Part shown: piece after piece, positions 1,040 through 14,581 of the stretch
Layout: each line of letters opens with the position of its first letter
How positions within the stretch are numbered: position 1 is the stretch's first letter
DNA from: Leptospiraceae bacterium
GTDB taxonomy: Bacteria; Spirochaetota; Leptospiria; Leptospirales; Leptospiraceae
Assembly (NCBI GenBank): GCA_947458405.1
Contig: CANGZW010000019.1
Span: forward strand, 1-42,173
Length of the DNA: 42,173 nucleotides
Direction of reading: 5' to 3'
Position numbers and translations under genes: made by a program
Notes under the pieces: model-generated
The model's database searches: none
The model's input: the letters and a program-made list of their open reading frames with translations, nothing else
Told to the model about the DNA's origin: nothing

Positions 1040-2299
1040 ATGAAAATTATATTAAATAAACTTTTTTCATCAGGATTTTTAAAATCATCCTTAATTGTAA
1101 GCATATCAAAAGTTATTTCTTCATTATCTAATTTAGTTTTTATGGTGTATGCCGTAAATATCATATCAAAAACAGAAAATGGGTATCTTCAATATTATTT
1201 AGGATTTTTACCTGTAATACTAGCTGTAGCTGAATTGGGTATACCTTCGGCTATAGTGAAATATTTATCAGTAGCAAAATCAGATTTAAATAAAATTGGA
1301 ATTTTAATGGAGGCAACACTTCTTATTAAATTAATTTCATTTATTATTCTATTAATAGCGGGAATTGTATCCTACTTTATTTTTAATATGGATCCTCTAA
1401 TAATATTCGTCTTAGTAGTAGGGGGAACTGTTACCTCTTTTTTAACATATTTTGAAAGCATAATAGTCTCATACAGAGATTATAAAAATCTAGCTATATG
1501 GAATCCCATAGGAAATATTACAAAATTAATTTTACTTCATATTTGTAATACGTATAGTTCTAGTCCTCTTACATATATAGATATACTAGTTTTATTCTCT
1601 CTCTCGCCCTTGTTAATCATAGGATTTTACTTTTATTTATCACGTAAAATTGAATTCAAATGGACGGGGGATTTTCATGAGGTTATATTAAGAATAAAAG
1701 AGTTATCCTTCTTTAATCTGTGGGCATTTTTAGCTTCAATTTTTGCAATATTATCAGATAGGATGGAACTTTTCTTTTTGAAATTATACCATACTCCTGA
1801 TGCAGTAGCCATTTATGGTACTACACTTCAACTATTTAGTGGATTTGTGATTCTCTTTTCAACTTTAAATTCTTTGATTCTCCCCAGATTATCAGTTGCT
1901 GTGAATCAAAAGGAATTTAATAAACTACTCTTTAAATCAATGTTTACTAGTTTAATTGTTGCTATTATTTTGATTCCCGGTCTATTTTTAGCAGAGCCTA
2001 TTTTGACCTTTTTGTTTAAGAATAAATATTCCGAGTCTATTCCAGTCTTTAAAATACTTTATCCAAATTATTTGCTCCAATTATTATTTGCACCTTTGGG
2101 GATTGCTCTATTCGCTATGGGTAAACCAAAAATATTAGCTATGTTGGCATTTATAAGACTTTTATCTGGTGTGATACTTGATAATATTTTAATTCCTGAG
2201 TACAATGTAGGTGGAGCGGGAATATCTTTTTTTCTAGGGCAGATAATTTCATGGCTTGTGTTACTAGGATATTTTTGGGCAACAATCTGGAAGGAATAA
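1040..2299 (+). CDS. MOP-superfamily flippase (Wzx/polysaccharide export type)
   Basis: A 419-residue, almost wholly hydrophobic protein with about 12 membrane helices. The N-terminal pattern (SLIVSISKVISSLSNLVFM, then GYLQYYLG and ELGIPSAIVKYL) is that of oligosaccharide flippases of the polysaccharide_synt family, which move lipid-linked glycans or lipid II-like carriers across the inner membrane. Length is typical (about 400-500). It sits between a PAP2 phosphatase and folP with gaps of 16 bp and 1 bp, so it is almost certainly co-transcribed with them. No glycosyltransferases are in the window, so the carried glycan is unknown. Assignment to the superfamily is firm; assignment to Wzx rather than MurJ or another subfamily is less so. 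Confidence 0.85.
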   Translation: MKIILNKLFSSGFLKSSLIVSISKVISSLSNLVFMVYAVNIISKTENGYLQYYLGFLPVILAVAELGIPSAIVKYLSVAKSDLNKIGILMEATLLIKLISFIILLIAGIVSYFIFNMDPLIIFVLVVGGTVTSFLTYFESIIVSYRDYKNLAIWNPIGNITKLILLHICNTYSSSPLTYIDILVLFSLSPLLIIGFYFYLSRKIEFKWTGDFHEVILRIKELSFFNLWAFLASIFAILSDRMELFFLKLYHTPDAVAIYGTTLQLFSGFVILFSTLNSLILPRLSVAVNQKEFNKLLFKSMFTSLIVAIILIPGLFLAEPILTFLFKNKYSESIPVFKILYPNYLLQLLFAPLGIALFAMGKPKILAMLAFIRLLSGVILDNILIPEYNVGGAGISFFLGQIISWLVLLGYFWATIWKE

Positions 2300-2300
2300 A

Positions 2301-3113
2301 ATGGAAATCGCAGGAATTTTAAACGTAACAGAAGATTCTTTTTCGGATGGAGGAAAATTTCTAAAAGAAATAGATTATTTAAAACAGATTGATTATTTAA
2401 TTCAATCTGGCGCTAATGTGATAGACATTGGTGCACAATCTTCAAATATAAATGCAAAATTAATATCAGAAGAGGAAGAATGGAATAGAGTAAGTCCTAT
2501 ATGTAAGACATTAAAATCTAAAAATATTAAAATATCAGTAGATACCTTCAAGCCCAGTGTAATACGAAACTCTATTTTAGAAAGAGTAAATTTCATTAAT
2601 AATATAAATGCATTCGAAAATGAAGAATCCATGAATATTCTGAGTGAGTTTACTTCTGAATTGCCTAATTTAGTGTTGATGTTTTCGCATGATAAAACAG
2701 GAATTGCAAGGTTGGGCTCAACATTAAAACCTGAATCAATAGTTGATGAAATTTCAAGTTATTTTGATAAAAGAATTTCTGATTTATCCAAAATTGGTGT
2801 CCCGGAGGAGAAATTAATTTTTGATCCGGGAATGGGCTTTTTTTTGGGAGAGAATCCAGATTTAAGTATAAAAGTTTTAGCTAAAATTTCCATATTGAAA
2901 CAAAGATTTAAGAGAATATATATTTCTGTATCTCGAAAGTCTTTTTTAGGTAATATATTGGGTGGAATTCCCCCTATCGAAAGAAATTATGCTTCTCTTG
3001 CGGCTGAAATATATTTATTCAATAATAACATAGATTGGATTAGAACACATGAACCCAAAGCAATTTATCAATCCATGAAAATTTTAAATAAAATTAAAGA
3101 GATGGAGTTTTAA
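2301..3113 (+). CDS. folP: Dihydropteroate synthase, Sul-like
   Basis: Condenses 6-hydroxymethyl-7,8-dihydropterin pyrophosphate with p-aminobenzoate in folate synthesis; target of sulfonamides. The TIM-barrel signatures are all present: N8 in NVTEDSFSDGG, D42 in IDIG, D81 in VDTFKP, D175 in FDPGMGF, K213 in SRKSFLG and the R248-x-H250 pair in RTHEP. Length 270 is normal. The pABA loop, however, is AQSSNINAK (45-53) instead of the usual ESTRPG, and the DPGMGFFLG, SVSRKSFLG and RTHEP stretches match, from memory, the plasmid sulfonamide-resistance enzymes Sul1/Sul2 far better than E. coli FolP. The ATG starts 1 bp after the flippase stop, with AAGGA just upstream, and 1 bp separates its stop from the alpha-2-macroglobulin gene. 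No other folate gene is nearby, so folP is embedded in an envelope operon. Confidence 0.92.
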   Translation: MEIAGILNVTEDSFSDGGKFLKEIDYLKQIDYLIQSGANVIDIGAQSSNINAKLISEEEEWNRVSPICKTLKSKNIKISVDTFKPSVIRNSILERVNFINNINAFENEESMNILSEFTSELPNLVLMFSHDKTGIARLGSTLKPESIVDEISSYFDKRISDLSKIGVPEEKLIFDPGMGFFLGENPDLSIKVLAKISILKQRFKRIYISVSRKSFLGNILGGIPPIERNYASLAAEIYLFNNNIDWIRTHEPKAIYQSMKILNKIKEMEF

Positions 3114-3114
3114 A

Positions 3115-6100
3115 ATGATACCTAAAATAATTATAATATTTTTAATTTTAATTAATAATATATATTCCCAAAATCCTGTTACAATTGAATCTTTTTCACC
3201 TGAAGGAGAAGTTAAGGATATAAAACAGGTCGTGGTTCGATTTAGTGAATCGATGGTACCATTGAGCTCCCCAAAAATAAAAACGGATCAATTTATAATT
3301 AATTGTCCTTCTGAGGGTAAATCAAGATGGCTAGATGATAAGACTTATGTATATGAATTTTTAAAACCATTAGAATCAGGTATTTCCTGCACTTTTAAAG
3401 TTAGTGATCAAACTAAATCCTTAAATGGCAAACAAATAACAGGAAAGAAAACCTTCGAATTTACAACAGGAGGACCATATATAATTCAATCTGAGCCCAG
3501 AGATGGGGGTAGAATCGAGGAAAATCAGTACTTTTATTTTCAATCTAGCACTCCTATAAATGAAGAATCACTTATCGATAATTTATATTTTTCAATAGAT
3601 GGATATCGAGAGAAAGTGTATGTCAATCTCATCAAAGGTGAGGAAGAGAGTATAATTTTAAAAACATTATTCCCAAATAAAATATTAAAAAATTCTTATA
3701 TAATCAAATCCAAATTAAATTTTCCTAATGGAAAAAAAGTTTCTATGGTATTCGGGAAAGGTATTATTTCAAAGTCAGGTGTTGCCAGTTCCAGTGACCA
3801 GATTATGAATTTTGAAACTAGGGAACCATTTAATATTTCTTTTTATTGTAACCGAGAAAATGCAAATTCAGGTTGTATTCCACTTTTAGATATATATCTA
3901 AATTTTAGCTCTCCAGTTGATATACAATTGGCAAGAAAAATTAGGCTCAGTGGAGGAGGAAAGATATTTGTACCACAACAATTAAAAACAGATCCAATAG
4001 AAGGTTCAATTTCTTCTTTGACTTTCAGTGCACCCTTTCCTGAAAATACTAATCTATTAATAGAGGTTCCTGAAGATTTTAAAGATGATACTGCTAGAAA
4101 ACTCCCAAAAAATAAGAAAAATTCTATAAAAATATTTGTTGCTAAAAATCCAGCCCTTGCTAAATTTCCTGCAAAATTTGGAATTATGGAATTAGAAGGT
4201 GATACAAATTTACCATTGAGTATAAGAAATTTGGAAGTTGGACTAAGGGCTAGATCATTAACTCTCTCCCCTAACCCTGTTGCAGCAATGAATATTCCCG
4301 GAAAACGGATGAAAATATCATCCGATCAAATCTTATTGTACCTTAGAAAAATTTCTAGTCACGAAAGAGAAAAGTCTATCTTTGATAGTTCAAATTTGAC
4401 TTTTCCATTTGTGATTCCACAACCATTGGGCACAAACGTACTACAAAATGTAGCAATACCAATCAAAGAACCCGGATTTCATGTTGTAGAAGTAGAGAGT
4501 TCAATACTTGGAAGTTCATTGTTAGAAAAAAAAGGAAATATGTATGTCCCTACAACTGTTTTAGTTACAGGAATGGCTGTTCATTTTAAGCAAGGCAAAG
4601 AAAATTCTTTAGTTTGGGTAACTAATCTAAAAACAGCAAAACCTGTTAAGGAAGCTAATATTTCAGTGAGGGATTGTAAAAATAATTTAGTATCTAGCGG
4701 TAAAACTGATAATAATGGGTTATTATCAGTTAAATTACCTGATCCTATTTTTTGCACTTACTCAGAATACCAAAATGGGTTTTTGGTTATTGCCGAGAAA
4801 GAAAATGATTTATCTTTTGTTCATAGTTCATGGGATAATGGAATAGAATTATGGAGATACAATTTACCGGGGAATAATTCATATTCAGACAGTAAACAAT
4901 ATGTAGTACATACAATATTAGATAAAGCCTTATATAGAGCTGGTGAAACTGTAAATATGAAACATATATTTAGAAAACAGAATATGAGTGGATTTTCTTT
5001 ACCTTCATCTGAAAATAACCCTAAAAAAATAATAATTACTCATTTAGGAACTGATCAAAAATATACTTATAATATCACATGGAATTTAGGGAGCTCAGAA
5101 ACTAATTTTTCTATTCCAAAAGAAGCTAAATTAGGTACATATCAAATAACTTTGGAAAAAGATGCTTCTAATATATATTATACAGGGGAATTTCGAGTAG
5201 AAGAATTTAGACTCCCAATATTAAAAGGGAATATTGTATTACCAGAAAAGAAAATTATAAATAATAAAGAAATCCCAATTACATTATCAGTTGACTATCT
5301 TTCTGGAGGACCCGCTTCTAATCTGGATGTGAAATTTAAATATTTTTTTACAAATAATGATTTAAATGAAATATTGGGATATGAAGATTTATATTTTTAT
5401 TCCTTAGAAATAAAGGAAGGAAAAAATCAAAGGCAGGGATATAATTATTATCTTTATGATAATGAAGACATTCAAGAAGAATCTAATTATAATAATGAAA
5501 AAATAGCTAATGCAAATTATAAGCTAAATTCAAAAGGTACTACAAATATAATTATAGATAATAATTATAAACAAGAAACTATTTATAAATATAATTTTGA
5601 AATGGAGTACAGAGACCCAAATGGTGAAATACAAACAGTATCATCAAGTCTTCCTGTATATCCATCCAATTATAAAGTAGGGATGAGGATTCAATCCTAT
5701 AATCAAGAATCTAATTTACTTAAAACAAAAATAGTTGTTTTAGATATAAACAATAATCCAATATCCAATCATAATGTATTGGTGGAAGTTTTTAAGAAAA
5801 ATATTTATTCAAGTCGAAAAAGAATTGTGGGGGGTTTCTATACCTATGATGATATTGAGGAAGTAAATAAGATTGGTAAATTTTGTGAAGGAAAAACGGA
5901 TGAAAAAGGTATTCTATATTGCGAGTTAACACCTCCTGAGAAAGGCAGTTTAATACTCCAATCTGTAATACAAGACTCCTCAGATCTTAAAACATTTGCA
6001 ACTGAAGAAACCTATATACCTGATTCGGATGTATCCTATTGGACAAGTTATTCAAATACAGATAGAATAGATATTCTACCAAACAAAAAATTATATGAAA

Positions 6101-8694
6101 CAGGAGAAAATGCAAGAATTCAAATTAAATCCCCTTTTAGTAAAGCAACAGCTCTAGTAACTGTTGAGAGAGAGGGAATTTTAGACAAATTTATAGTCGA
6201 ATTAAATAATAAAGATCCCTATATTGATATTCCAGTTAAAAAAAATTATGCACCCAATATTTTTGTTTCGGTATTACTTGTAAGAGGTAGAATAGATACT
6301 ATCAAACCTACCTCAACTATTGATTTAGGAAGACCATCGTATAAATTAGGTATCACAAATTTGAATATTGGCTGGAATGAACATAAAATTGATGTTAAAA
6401 TAAACTCAGATAAAGAAATATATAAGATAAGGGATAAAGCAAAAATTCAAATTAAATTAGGAGTTGCAAATGGAACTCCTCTTCAGGAATCAGCTGAGAT
6501 AACTCTTATAGCAATTGATGAAGCCTTGAATCAACTCTTACCTAATAAAAGTTGGAATATTTTAGAGTCTTTAATGCAAACTCGGAAATTGGAAGTAAAT
6601 ACTTCTACTGCACAAATGCAAGTGATTGGAAGAAGGCATTTTGGACAAAAAGGTGTACCACAGGGTGGAGGAGGAGGTGGTTCAGAAATTACTCGAGAAT
6701 TATTTAATACCTTATTATTATGGAAAGGAACAATTGTTCCCGATAAAAATGGAGAAGCAGAAATAGTAATACCATTAAACGATTCATTGACATCTTTTAG
6801 AATTGTTGCCATTGCTACATCAGGAGCTAAATTATTTGGTACTGGATCCCATTTAATTAAAACAAGTCAGGATATAATGCTCTTATCGGGACTCCCTCCA
6901 GAGGTTAGAGAAGGAGATGAGATTGATTTAGAATTGACTGTAAGAAATAATACCACTAAGGATGACGATATATTAATTAGTGGTATAGCAGATGTTAATC
7001 AATTACTACTTCCAACTAAAAAAGTAATGATCCCTAAAGGTAGTTCAGAAATTGTAAGCTGGAAAATCAAAATCCCTGAAAATATAAGCTCAATTCAATA
7101 TGATTTTTCAGCAAAATCAAGTCTAAGTTCTGATAAAATAAAAGTATCACAAAAAGTCAATAAAGTCCTTTCTGTTTCAGTAAGGCAGGCTACATTATTT
7201 CAACTTGAAAATGAAAGTGTAATACCTGTTCAGCCTCCAAATATGGATAATTTATCTCAGGGTGGTTTAAATGTAATTCTCAAAAAATCTCTAATGGAGT
7301 CAACATCTTCAATAAAAGAATATATGAGAAAATACCCCTATACTTGTGTAGAACAACAAATAAGTAAAGCAATCGTACTAAAAGATAGAGATTCTTGGGA
7401 TAAAATAATGGAGAAATTACCATCCTATATGGATGAGAATGGTTTTGTAAAATATTTTCCTTCTATGCTTTATGGAAGTACTACATTAACATCCTATTTA
7501 TTAAGTATTTCAGAGGAATCAAAATTCCCTATTCCAGAAAATACTAAAAAAAATCTAGAAAGAGCCTTGAATAAATTCGTAACTGGTACTATACTTCAAA
7601 AGGGTGTATTGGAAACTGCCGATTTAAACATTAGAAAAATACAATCTCTTGAGGCTTTAACTAAAATTAATCCGGAATATTCTTCCCTAGTTTTAACTCT
7701 AAAACTAAATTTAAACCTATTACCAACGTCTAGTTTAATAGAGTACTGGTCAATTCTTGATTTATCTAAAGGTATTGCAGATAAGGATGATAAAATTAAA
7801 CAAATAGAAAATATTTTAAAAAGTCGATTAAATTATCAAGGAACCAAAATTAAATTTTCAACGGAAAAAAACGATAATCTCTATTGGTTGATGGTATCAG
7901 GAGATATGAATTCCATTCGATTTCTAAATCTAGTATTAAAAAAAGAAAAGTGGAAACAAGATATTGGGAAACTAATAAAAGGTGTAGTACATAGACAAAA
8001 AAATGGTATTTGGGATACAACTCTAGCAAATGCATGGGGAGTAATTACCCTGGAAAAATTTTCAAAAGAGTTTGAAAAAGAAACACTAACTGGAGAAACC
8101 AAGATTTCTTATTCTGAAAATTATATTCACAACTGGAGTACAAATTCCAAGGGAAGTGAAAAATTATTAAAATGGAATCCAAATATCCAAAATATTTCAA
8201 TTAACCATACAGGTAATGGTAAACCCTGGGTTACAGTAGAAAGTAAATCCATTGTAAATCCTGTAGATACCTCTAACGGTTACACAATAAAAAAAGAATT
8301 TTTAGATGAAAATGGTAATATTCAAAAATCATTTAAGCAGGGTGATATAGTAAAAGTAAGATTAAAAGTAAAAAGTGATACAGATATGACTTGGGTCGTA
8401 ATCAATGATCCTATCCCATCAGGATCAACTATCCTCTCTGGTGGATTACAAAATTCAGAAATGGCTAGATTATCTGAAAGGGGATCAACAATTTATTCTA
8501 CATTTGAAGAAAGGTCATTTTCTGCTTATAAACTTTATTATGAGTATATGTCCGAAGGTGAATATATAATTGAATATACTATTAGATTGAATCAAACTGG
8601 AGTTTTTAATTCTCCAGAGACCAGAATAGAAGCTATGTACTCACCGGATATGTATGGCGAATATCCAAATCCTATAATTAGAGTGGATAAATGA
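3115..8694 (+). CDS. Bacterial alpha-2-macroglobulin with thioester
   Basis: An 1859-residue exported protease trap. Residues 1-18 are a signal peptide without a lipobox Cys, so it is probably periplasmic and soluble, unlike the lipoprotein form in E. coli (1653 residues). A bacterial Ig-like domain comes first (about 20-120), then a string of macroglobulin domains (for example ALYRAGETVNMKH near 610), a low-complexity Asn/Tyr/Glu stretch near 770-830 that could include the bait region, a GGGGGG tract at about 1184-1189 opening the A2M core domain (LLLWKGTIVPDKNGEAEIVIPL), and the thioester domain with CVEQ at 1411-1414, so covalent trapping should work. GGAG at 3104-3107 gives a good start. 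Bacterial homologues are often paired with the peptidoglycan synthase pbpC; here the partner is instead an overlapping SGNH gene and an MBOAT acyltransferase. Confidence 0.93.
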   Translation: MIPKIIIIFLILINNIYSQNPVTIESFSPEGEVKDIKQVVVRFSESMVPLSSPKIKTDQFIINCPSEGKSRWLDDKTYVYEFLKPLESGISCTFKVSDQTKSLNGKQITGKKTFEFTTGGPYIIQSEPRDGGRIEENQYFYFQSSTPINEESLIDNLYFSIDGYREKVYVNLIKGEEESIILKTLFPNKILKNSYIIKSKLNFPNGKKVSMVFGKGIISKSGVASSSDQIMNFETREPFNISFYCNRENANSGCIPLLDIYLNFSSPVDIQLARKIRLSGGGKIFVPQQLKTDPIEGSISSLTFSAPFPENTNLLIEVPEDFKDDTARKLPKNKKNSIKIFVAKNPALAKFPAKFGIMELEGDTNLPLSIRNLEVGLRARSLTLSPNPVAAMNIPGKRMKISSDQILLYLRKISSHEREKSIFDSSNLTFPFVIPQPLGTNVLQNVAIPIKEPGFHVVEVESSILGSSLLEKKGNMYVPTTVLVTGMAVHFKQGKENSLVWVTNLKTAKPVKEANISVRDCKNNLVSSGKTDNNGLLSVKLPDPIFCTYSEYQNGFLVIAEKENDLSFVHSSWDNGIELWRYNLPGNNSYSDSKQYVVHTILDKALYRAGETVNMKHIFRKQNMSGFSLPSSENNPKKIIITHLGTDQKYTYNITWNLGSSETNFSIPKEAKLGTYQITLEKDASNIYYTGEFRVEEFRLPILKGNIVLPEKKIINNKEIPITLSVDYLSGGPASNLDVKFKYFFTNNDLNEILGYEDLYFYSLEIKEGKNQRQGYNYYLYDNEDIQEESNYNNEKIANANYKLNSKGTTNIIIDNNYKQETIYKYNFEMEYRDPNGEIQTVSSSLPVYPSNYKVGMRIQSYNQESNLLKTKIVVLDINNNPISNHNVLVEVFKKNIYSSRKRIVGGFYTYDDIEEVNKIGKFCEGKTDEKGILYCELTPPEKGSLILQSVIQDSSDLKTFATEETYIPDSDVSYWTSYSNTDRIDILPNKKLYETGENARIQIKSPFSKATALVTVEREGILDKFIVELNNKDPYIDIPVKKNYAPNIFVSVLLVRGRIDTIKPTSTIDLGRPSYKLGITNLNIGWNEHKIDVKINSDKEIYKIRDKAKIQIKLGVANGTPLQESAEITLIAIDEALNQLLPNKSWNILESLMQTRKLEVNTSTAQMQVIGRRHFGQKGVPQGGGGGGSEITRELFNTLLLWKGTIVPDKNGEAEIVIPLNDSLTSFRIVAIATSGAKLFGTGSHLIKTSQDIMLLSGLPPEVREGDEIDLELTVRNNTTKDDDILISGIADVNQLLLPTKKVMIPKGSSEIVSWKIKIPENISSIQYDFSAKSSLSSDKIKVSQKVNKVLSVSVRQATLFQLENESVIPVQPPNMDNLSQGGLNVILKKSLMESTSSIKEYMRKYPYTCVEQQISKAIVLKDRDSWDKIMEKLPSYMDENGFVKYFPSMLYGSTTLTSYLLSISEESKFPIPENTKKNLERALNKFVTGTILQKGVLETADLNIRKIQSLEALTKINPEYSSLVLTLKLNLNLLPTSSLIEYWSILDLSKGIADKDDKIKQIENILKSRLNYQGTKIKFSTEKNDNLYWLMVSGDMNSIRFLNLVLKKEKWKQDIGKLIKGVVHRQKNGIWDTTLANAWGVITLEKFSKEFEKETLTGETKISYSENYIHNWSTNSKGSEKLLKWNPNIQNISINHTGNGKPWVTVESKSIVNPVDTSNGYTIKKEFLDENGNIQKSFKQGDIVKVRLKVKSDTDMTWVVINDPIPSGSTILSGGLQNSEMARLSERGSTIYSTFEERSFSAYKLYYEYMSEGEYIIEYTIRLNQTGVFNSPETRIEAMYSPDMYGEYPNPIIRVDK

Positions 8695-12044: not shown

Positions 12045-12340
12045 ATACTTATTCATAAATTATTTGCTATTTTATTTTTATTATTAGCATATAGAAGTTA
12101 TGGTTAGAATAGAAAAAGCAAATTTCATTTTACATAATCAATCAAATATTTTTATAGTTGATGATCATCAATTCACATACAGATGAATTTAAAGATTTTC
12201 CAAGTATTCTAGAGCAAATAAATAATGGTTATAGTTGTAATTCTCCATCCATAAAACAGTATGAAAATCCGACTAATAACGAACTTTCAGATAAAGAAAT
12301 ATCTATTTTAGATAATTTTTATTTTATAATCAGCTTTTGT
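12045..12340 (+). pseudogene. Possible decayed secreted-protein gene
   Basis: Protein-like reading jumps through three frames. Codons from 12045 give a signal-peptide-like stretch (ILIHKLFAILFLLLAYRSYG, TAG at 12105) but start with ATA; the next frame from 12103 reads RIEKANFILHNQSNIFIVDDHQF, stop near 12185; the third, open from about 12158, reads HTDEFKDFPSILEQINNGYS and on to about 12340, where it runs into the antisense 3' end of selD. The residue mix (Asp, Glu, Pro, Ser, Gly, Cys) is unlike random AT-rich DNA. I read this as a small exported-protein gene broken by two frameshifts; the family is unknown. It could still be ordinary intergenic sequence. Confidence 0.3.
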
Positions 12341-14581
12341 TATTTCACCAATAATTGAAGCAATATAGCCATTCTTTTTTAAATTCGTAATACAAATATC
12401 TGCATTTTCAGAAGGAATGAACCCCAAAAGTCCACCAGATGTTTGAGGATCAAATAGTATATCTAAATTTAAATTTACTTTTATTTTATCTAATAAAATA
12501 TTATGATAAAATGAACTCCAATTTTCATCAAAGAGAGAGCTTTTTATGAGTGGAAAGTCTTTTTGAATATTGTTAACCCCTTCAATCAATGGAATGTTAT
12601 TTAAATTTAGTATTGCAGAAAGGTTTGTTTTTTGTAATGCCTTAGCTAAATGGCCAATTAATCCAAATCCAGAAATGTCCGTTATTGCCCTGACTCTATT
12701 TTCCTTCATAATTTCCATTGCCCTTCTATTTGATTGTAACATATAAAAAATTGCGGAGTCAATCCACTTGGACTTTGCTTTATTTCGCATATCACATGCA
12801 AATATCAATCCTGTTCCTAAAGGTTTAGTTAAAATGAGTATATCTCCTTTTTTTATTGTATCCTTACGTAACTCTAAACCAGAGTCTACTAATCCGGTAC
12901 AACTGAGTCCAATTATAGTTTCAAGACCTTCATTTGTATGACCTCCAATTAATTTACAATTTTCCATATCTAAAACTGAAATAAGTCCCGCCATGTGTTG
13001 AAAAATTTCTTCTTCAGTTTCTCTTTCGTTCATCCGTGGAATTGTAATTAATGCCATCGCACTATCAGGTAAGGCTCCCAGTGAATAAATATCATTCAAG
13101 CAATGATTGGCTGTTATTTTTCCAGATATAAAATTATCTTTTAAGATTGGTTTAAAAAAATCTATGGTATTGACAGTATATTTTCCAAGTGGTAACGAAA
13201 GAACTGCAGAGTCGTCCCCATCATTTAAACCCACTATAATTTTACTAGAATTATTAGAAGTGATATTATCTTGTAAAATCCTGGAAATTCTATCTATGAA
13301 TTTATCTTCTTTTACTTCTTTTTTTTCTGAGTATAACTTTACTCGAGTGAGGGCATTATGTAGTACGTTTTCTCCAATCTTTGAGCCACAACCCATACAC
13401 CTCAAAGTACTATCTTTCTTTTCAAACATTCCACTATTCTTATTCATATTATAAGGAAGATTTTTAAATGAATTCATAAAATTTTTATCTATATAGTCTT
13501 TGATCTTCCATAAAAATTTTGATGGACCCATAGATAGAAAATTTCTTTTTGCTATAGCTCTATTATCTCCTGTAGATAACAAAGACAGAAAATATTTTTG
13601 AGGAATATAGTGTTTCAATTTCTGATTATGAGTCAATGCAAGTAAATTTGAAAATAGGAAAGAACCCTGTCTAACAGCATAAACTCCTGATTTTTCAAGA
13701 TTATAATTTTCAATATTCGCAATATCACCTGTAGCGAAAATTTCAGGATTTGAAATTGATTGTAAAAATGTATTGACTAAGATAAAACCATTCTTATCTT
13801 TTTTTAGTTTTACATTGGAAATCCATTTGGGTGGAGACGCTTGAGTAGTAAAAACAATAAAATTAGATTCATAGGAATTTCCCGATTCACATTGTATAAT
13901 TGATACATTCAAATTCTCAGGCTTCTCTTTTATATTTGAAACTTTCTCATTTAATATTACTTGAATATTTTTACTTTCGAGAGTTCTTAGAATTTTATTT
14001 CTAACTGATTTAGAGTAGGATTCAACAATCTTCTCACCTTTATGAATAATAGTAATTTCAACATCTTCTTTTGCTTTATTAAATTTATTTCGAAGGGAGA
14101 GTGCTATTTCAATTCCTCCCGCACCACCCCCAATAATACAAATTTTAGGATTAATAAACTTATGAATAGATTCACTAAAGGATTTTAATTTTTGGGTAAA
14201 TTCTGTAATAGGTTTTATGGGCGCAATATTTTTTGAAATAGCAATATTTTGAATATCAGGTGTAATACCAATATCAATTGATAAATAATCATAATATATT
14301 GGAGGAGTAGATTTACAGACTACATATTTATTCTCAATATCTATATTAAATACAAAATCTTTTATAAATTTACTACCCGAAAAGTTACACAAATGGCGTA
14401 GGTCAATATGACATTCTTCCTCGGTATAATCTCCCGAAATAAAACCTGGTATCATGCCAGAGTAAGGCGTGAGAGATTCTTTTGATATAAGTGTGATATT
14501 TAAATCCGAAATAGGATCCATCCCAAATTTTTTAAGAAATATTGAATGGGAATGCCCCCCTCCTATTAAAACTATATTCAT
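12308..14581 (-). CDS. selD: FAD-dependent oxidoreductase-selenophosphate synthase fusion
   Basis: Residues 1 to about 380 are a NDH-2-like pyridine nucleotide-disulfide oxidoreductase: FAD-binding IGGGHSHS at the very start (supporting this ATG), a second dinucleotide fold at ICIIGGGAGGIEIALSLR, and FATGDIANI. Residues from about 390 are SelD, which makes selenophosphate from selenide and ATP for selenocysteine and 2-selenouridine synthesis. The SelD active-site segment reads CMGCGSK, with Cys398 at the catalytic Cys/Sec position and Lys401; DGDDSAV, TIDFFKPI and ANHCLNDIYSLGA are the metal/ATP motifs. The fusion is a known architecture (TIGR03169 N-terminal to SelD). It is monocistronic here, convergent with the surface operon, and none of selA, selB, selC or selU is in the window, so its selenium end product is unresolved. 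Confidence 0.93.
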   Translation of the reverse strand: MNIVLIGGGHSHSIFLKKFGMDPISDLNITLISKESLTPYSGMIPGFISGDYTEEECHIDLRHLCNFSGSKFIKDFVFNIDIENKYVVCKSTPPIYYDYLSIDIGITPDIQNIAISKNIAPIKPITEFTQKLKSFSESIHKFINPKICIIGGGAGGIEIALSLRNKFNKAKEDVEITIIHKGEKIVESYSKSVRNKILRTLESKNIQVILNEKVSNIKEKPENLNVSIIQCESGNSYESNFIVFTTQASPPKWISNVKLKKDKNGFILVNTFLQSISNPEIFATGDIANIENYNLEKSGVYAVRQGSFLFSNLLALTHNQKLKHYIPQKYFLSLLSTGDNRAIAKRNFLSMGPSKFLWKIKDYIDKNFMNSFKNLPYNMNKNSGMFEKKDSTLRCMGCGSKIGENVLHNALTRVKLYSEKKEVKEDKFIDRISRILQDNITSNNSSKIIVGLNDGDDSAVLSLPLGKYTVNTIDFFKPILKDNFISGKITANHCLNDIYSLGALPDSAMALITIPRMNERETEEEIFQHMAGLISVLDMENCKLIGGHTNEGLETIIGLSCTGLVDSGLELRKDTIKKGDILILTKPLGTGLIFACDMRNKAKSKWIDSAIFYMLQSNRRAMEIMKENRVRAITDISGFGLIGHLAKALQKTNLSAILNLNNIPLIEGVNNIQKDFPLIKSSLFDENWSSFYHNILLDKIKVNLNLDILFDPQTSGGLLGFIPSENADICITNLKKNGYIASIIGEITKADYKIKII

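Follow-up and report, generated by a model that had tools for sequence, protein, structure and literature searches.

The closest described relatives of the gene analysed here are the Sul enzymes and the chromosomal dihydropteroate synthases (DHPS) that share their motif. The Sul motif is defined by a two-residue insertion in the region corresponding to E. coli R171–N211 (Sanchez-Osuna et al. 2019, PMC6335563), and the presence of this motif in Leptospiraceae folP (FolP*), together with resistance conferred by the L. interrogans gene, was already published in that work. Expression of L. interrogans folP in E. coli gave an SMX MIC of 512 mg/L, compared with 8 mg/L for the control, and L. interrogans and P. 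lavamentivorans are the only species whose FolP* has been demonstrated to confer sulfonamide resistance (PMC6335563). In the Sul structures, discrimination against sulfonamides is assigned to a phenylalanine of helix α6 (Venkatesan et al. 2023, PMC10328974); changing this residue to glycine in Sul1–3 restores sulfonamide sensitivity (PMC10328974).

The window, a stretch of 42,173 nucleotides from the draft genome of a Leptospiraceae bacterium, contains an intact folP open reading frame with an ATG start, encoding 270 residues. The host represents an uncultured genus of the Leptospiraceae to which none of the compared genomes belongs. We regard the gene, with a probability of roughly 0.9, as a housekeeping DHPS of the Sul-motif FolP* type that is a distant cousin, and not the immediate source, of the mobile sul genes. 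Its features are as follows.

2301–3113, plus strand: folP, dihydropteroate synthase of the Sul-like (FolP*) type (profile and sequence searches, residue check)
2433–2459, plus strand: loop 2, AQSSNINAK, residues 45–53, Sul-like and not ESTRPG (alignment)
2823–2849, plus strand: Sul motif DPGMGFFLG in helix α6, residues 175–183, with a two-residue insertion relative to ordinary DHPS (alignment; definition of PMC6335563)
2838–2840, plus strand: codon of Phe180, equivalent to Sul1 Phe178, Sul2 Phe179 and Sul3 Phe177, the published sulfonamide-excluding residue (alignment; PMC10328974)
2925–2951, plus strand: SVSRKSFLG, residues 209–217, with catalytic K213 and pABA-contacting S214 (alignment, residue check)

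The protein matches the DHPS profile TIGR01496 with 209 bits against a cut-off of 162.6 (E-value of 7.8e-62). The NCBIfam models for Sul3, Sul2 and Sul1 rank next (E-values of 1e-57 to 1e-47), and none of their cut-offs is passed (195 of 475, 173 of 575 and 163 of 600 bits, respectively). The residues that serve catalysis and the binding of pterin and pABA (N8, D42, D81, D175, K213, R248 and H250) are all present, as the original prediction had stated, and its alignment of DPGMGFFLG, SVSRKSFLG and RTHEP with the Sul enzymes holds for Sul1–3. Loop 2 likewise differs from the ordinary type as described there, reading AQSSNINAK, compared with ESTRPGA in E. coli and AASSNPD in Sul3. The weight that was placed on this loop is nevertheless misplaced, because the published determinant is the α6 insertion with its phenylalanine, on which the prediction laid no emphasis, and the better evidence is therefore DPGMGFFLG. 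In the alignment this string stands opposite DPGFGF--G of E. coli, and Met178, Phe180 and Leu182 of the window protein align with Met176, Phe178 and Leu180 of Sul1, so that all three published α6 features are retained. Between positions 2595 and 2690 (residues 99–130), the window protein carries substitutions at otherwise conserved DHPS positions that are common to much of its family, including INN for IND (residues 99–102) and MFSH for MHS (residues 127–130), and the segment before loop 3 is longer. Judged from sequence, these family-specific changes could alter activity or drug binding.

The best sequence matches in the PDB are Sul3 (4e-54), Sul2 (1e-45) and Sul1 (9e-45), with every ordinary DHPS ranking lower. 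An AlphaFold2 model of the protein, built from 47 sequences comprising the window protein and its relatives, has a mean pLDDT of 95.8, and its closest PDB structure is Sul3 with the reaction intermediate (8scd; TM-score of 0.93 at 1.3 Å), followed by Sul2. Ordinary DHPS structures are more distant, with a TM-score of 0.89 and 1.9 Å for Y. pestis and TM-scores of 0.82–0.86 for E. coli.

The draft genome scanned for folP comprises 3.94 Mb in 198 contigs and is 96% complete. A PF00809 search of the whole draft identified the window copy as its sole folP; a second, ordinary folP was sought and not found, the other PF00809 match being a 1228-residue open frame read as MetH. HPPK (folK) is encoded elsewhere in the same genome, and since both folK and folP are present, the host likely has a de novo folate pathway. 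Three observations place the gene among FolP*: it carries the two-residue insertion, it is the only chromosomal folP, and its product groups with Sul1–3 when the motif columns are left out.

The enzyme would make 7,8-dihydropteroate from DHPP and pABA. Its helix α6, which has two more residues than that of ordinary DHPS, would set Phe180 beside the pABA carboxylate. Its most likely function is that of a normal, essential DHPS with intrinsic insensitivity to sulfonamides. The analysis shows the sequence, the motif, the single copy, the fold and the kinship; we infer both the catalysis and the insensitivity, the latter because L. interrogans folP raises the SMX MIC and because of the results with the Sul mutants. 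By analogy with the L. interrogans measurement, the natural sulfonamide tolerance that had been anticipated for this gene is a fair expectation.

The insertion is present in all 25 folP genes found in the order of the window host, which span two families, and in 1 of 25 examined from the rest of the Spirochaetota, a count that leaves out two further weak matches (in genomes G054 and G057); this distribution marks it as an ancient feature of the lineage. The one carrier outside the order, L012 (genome G059), is the sole such Spirochaetota folP seen; it lies close to the window's family in one tree, and transfer is possible. The key position itself is more variable. Phenylalanine occupies it in 20 of the 25 genes of the order, leucine in four (all in the window's family, four of its six relatives) and histidine in one, so that the phenylalanine itself is not fixed in the lineage. 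Loci that keep the insertion with the phenylalanine replaced are L004, L005, L006 and L009 (DPGMGLFL), L021 and L152 (GHF), and L148, L150, L151 and L153 (GNF). Such natural F, L, H and N variants make the published phenylalanine mechanism testable. All 80 best relatives from species genomes also carry the insertion; to judge by their record titles, they belong to Alphaproteobacteria, Planctomycetota, Myxococcota, Bacteroidota, Ignavibacteria, Spirochaetota and a Chloroflexi bin, in addition to sul1 copies, and having been retrieved with motif-based patterns they indicate spread, not frequency.

The variation at the key position bears on an alternative in which the motif is convergent or neutral, loop 2 and α6 serve pABA handling only, and the enzyme is as sensitive to sulfonamides as an ordinary DHPS. 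Relatives with the insertion have F, L, H or N at this position, which indicates that the residue is not strictly selected; however, the window protein retains Phe180 together with Met178 and Leu182, and the L. interrogans homologue is resistant on expression, which makes this alternative improbable.

The phylogeny was calculated from 98 proteins, five of them ordinary DHPS, and repeated with 12 motif columns removed. The Sul/FolP* group stands apart from ordinary DHPS (support of 100/100* with all columns and 100* without the motif columns), and the window protein branches within it, next to its own family (100/99* and 100*, respectively). Its membership of the same broad group as Sul is thus solid, and the branching with Sul and not with ordinary FolP that had been predicted is borne out. 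The deep position of the window's family is unstable, lying outside the Sul1–3 clade with all columns and inside it without the motif columns, and the approximately unbiased (AU) test does not reject a single clade made up of both families of the order (p = 0.21).

The proposal that Leptospiraceae and Rhodobiaceae folP are the origin of sul, to which the original prediction appealed, is genuine (PMC6335563), and in its 2019 form, with Leptospiraceae folP giving rise to sul3, it would make the window's lineage the true source of a mobile sul gene. The published Bayesian tree (PMC6335563) favours this, Sul3 is the best solved-structure match to the window protein, and a tree that joins the window's family and Sul3 is not rejected by the AU test (p = 0.23). 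Against it, the window protein is only 41% identical to Sul3, whereas the products of the sole folP of two Bacteroidales genomes (L038 and L040) reach 72% and 68%, and Sul3 sits with these two at 91–100% bootstrap with or without the motif columns. Another family of the window's order, its sister family, is also nearer to Sul3 (56%). Sul2 groups with Parvibaculum (L085; 81% identity) and Sul1 among alphaproteobacteria in both trees. Descent of sul3 from the window's lineage is accordingly rated unlikely: the claim of ancestry stands as far as grouping with Sul and fails on the much nearer chromosomal relatives that Sul2 and Sul3 have elsewhere, and the window FolP, from its sequence, looks unlikely as an ancestor of Sul.

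The two Bacteroidales loci (L038:5983–6783 and L040:6001–6804) are in metagenome-assembled genomes (MAGs) in which FolP* is the sole folP, and both adjoin a gene read as metG. Among the sequences compared, they are, by sequence, the nearest chromosomal relatives of Sul3, and the tree thereby places the closest chromosomal relatives known for sul3 outside the Leptospiraceae. A Victivallales protein termed Sul3 in PMC6416219 is absent from the trees, and sul3 may therefore have a nearer source than the Bacteroidales. Sul3-like FolP was found in 7 of 150 genomes around the Bacteroidales matches, and in some of them Asn or His replaces the phenylalanine. The name 'sul5' in PMC3899262 was considered and rejected as a gene name, being a clone label for a Veillonella folP.

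Two modules around FolP* genes, each near-identical between its own carriers, were observed in Bacteroidota and Ignavibacteria. The first spans approximately 1.3 kb with 98.7–99.8% DNA identity in Paenimyroides aquimaris, a Flavobacteriaceae isolate (L046:5782–7119), and in two Ignavibacteria MAGs (L047:5781–7112 and L107:5792–7119), with unrelated flanks. The second spans 2.2 kb with 98.3% identity in a Lewinella isolate (L051:5808–8009) and a Bacteroidia bin (L052:3292–5496); part of it matches catB carried by plasmids of Riemerella and Empedobacter, and a stretch of approximately 215 bp at its end is also present on several plasmids of Bacteroidota. The L046 module neighbours tet(X), aadS and erm(F), and L051 neighbours tet(X) and aadS. 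The hosts of L046, L047, L107, L051, L052 and L039 each encode a further DHPS that scores above the family cut-off and is of ordinary type by motif. The module proteins score 346–353 bits on the Sul3 model (cut-off of 475) and are unnamed in NCBIfam; a DNA-level search of PLSDB plasmids did not find the module gene, and no publication describing the modules was found in the open-access literature. The module in L046, L047 and L107 resembles a mobile sul gene that has not been named.

Taken together, we lean towards a picture in which the Sul motif represents an ancient, widespread state of chromosomal folP (in the whole Leptospirales, many Alphaproteobacteria, Planctomycetota, Myxococcota, a few Bacteroidales and a Chloroflexi bin) and not the speciality of two families; in which sul3 came from a rare Bacteroidales-type FolP* and not from Leptospiraceae; and in which a further sul-like gene without a name (about 60% identical to Sul3) is already being passed among Bacteroidota within resistance islands. 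As a lead on the source of sul3-type genes, this side result may matter more than the window gene.

The window folP lies in a run of envelope genes (PAP2, flippase and alpha-2-macroglobulin), its immediate neighbours being:

1040–2299, plus strand: polysaccharide flippase-like protein (PF01943), upstream, 1 bp before folP (domain search; spacing from sequence)
3115–8694, plus strand: bacterial alpha-2-macroglobulin of 1859 residues, downstream, 1 bp past the folP stop (domain search; spacing from sequence)

This placement had been called odd. The neighbours of folP vary by genus within the family, and no folate gene was seen among those scanned in the window's family and its sister family. Two relatives have a PD40-OmpA gene near folP and so come close to the published arrangement with Pal: in G001 this gene adjoins a histidine-phosphatase gene that folP follows, and in G002 it adjoins folP itself. 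The folP of G006, from the window's family, has M23-peptidase and MaoC genes beside it, and in two sister-family genomes folP is flanked by a TPR gene and a CMP-KDO synthetase-like cytidylyltransferase gene. The published Leptospiraceae neighbourhood of a Pal lipoprotein and a TPR protein is not matched at the window locus. Because the neighbours differ between the genera of the family, the operon placement is uninformative: folP is free-standing in this order, and it lies among envelope genes here by an accident of this lineage. Elsewhere in the window (12308–14581, minus strand), an NADH-dehydrogenase-like pyridine nucleotide oxidoreductase is fused to an AIR-synthase (SelD-like) domain.

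The GC content of folP (28.8%, compared with 30.2% for the window) is native and therefore gives no sign of recent arrival. Recent capture of folP, as a mobile resistance gene of the sul type, into the envelope cluster is highly improbable. One could cite for it a context unlike that of relatives, with the PD40-OmpA gene of G001 and G002 missing, but recent acquisition is rejected on the sole copy, the native GC content and the grouping with the folP of its own family (100*), with no plasmid match above 60% identity. Carriage on a plasmid, integron or transposon, the mark of a mobile Sul, is likewise not seen at this locus, where the gene stands among envelope genes with native GC content and all plasmid matches are below 60% identity.

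As a housekeeping FolP*, the window gene extends a known type of intrinsic resistance to another genus of the Leptospiraceae, with the trait being order-wide. With the Leptospiraceae FolP* of L. interrogans (PMC6335563), compared here by its published description, it shares a chromosomal DHPS, the two-residue Sul insertion and, by kinship, the family; it differs in genus and in having PAP2, flippase and alpha-2-macroglobulin neighbours in place of the published Pal-lipoprotein and TPR genes. Sul3 (PDB entries 7s2l, 7s2m and 8scd; PMC10328974) has the same fold, the α6 Phe, Met and Leu, and a Sul-like loop 2, but is 41% identical, plasmid-borne and nearer to the Bacteroidales FolP*. Sul1 and Sul2 share the motif and the fold at 34% and 38% identity, and both group with alphaproteobacterial FolP*. 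Ordinary DHPS, represented by E. coli FolP (32% identity) and other Spirochaetota folP, has the TIM barrel, the catalytic residues and presumably the same reaction in common with the window enzyme, and differs in lacking the α6 insertion and in its loop 2 (ESTRPG in E. coli).
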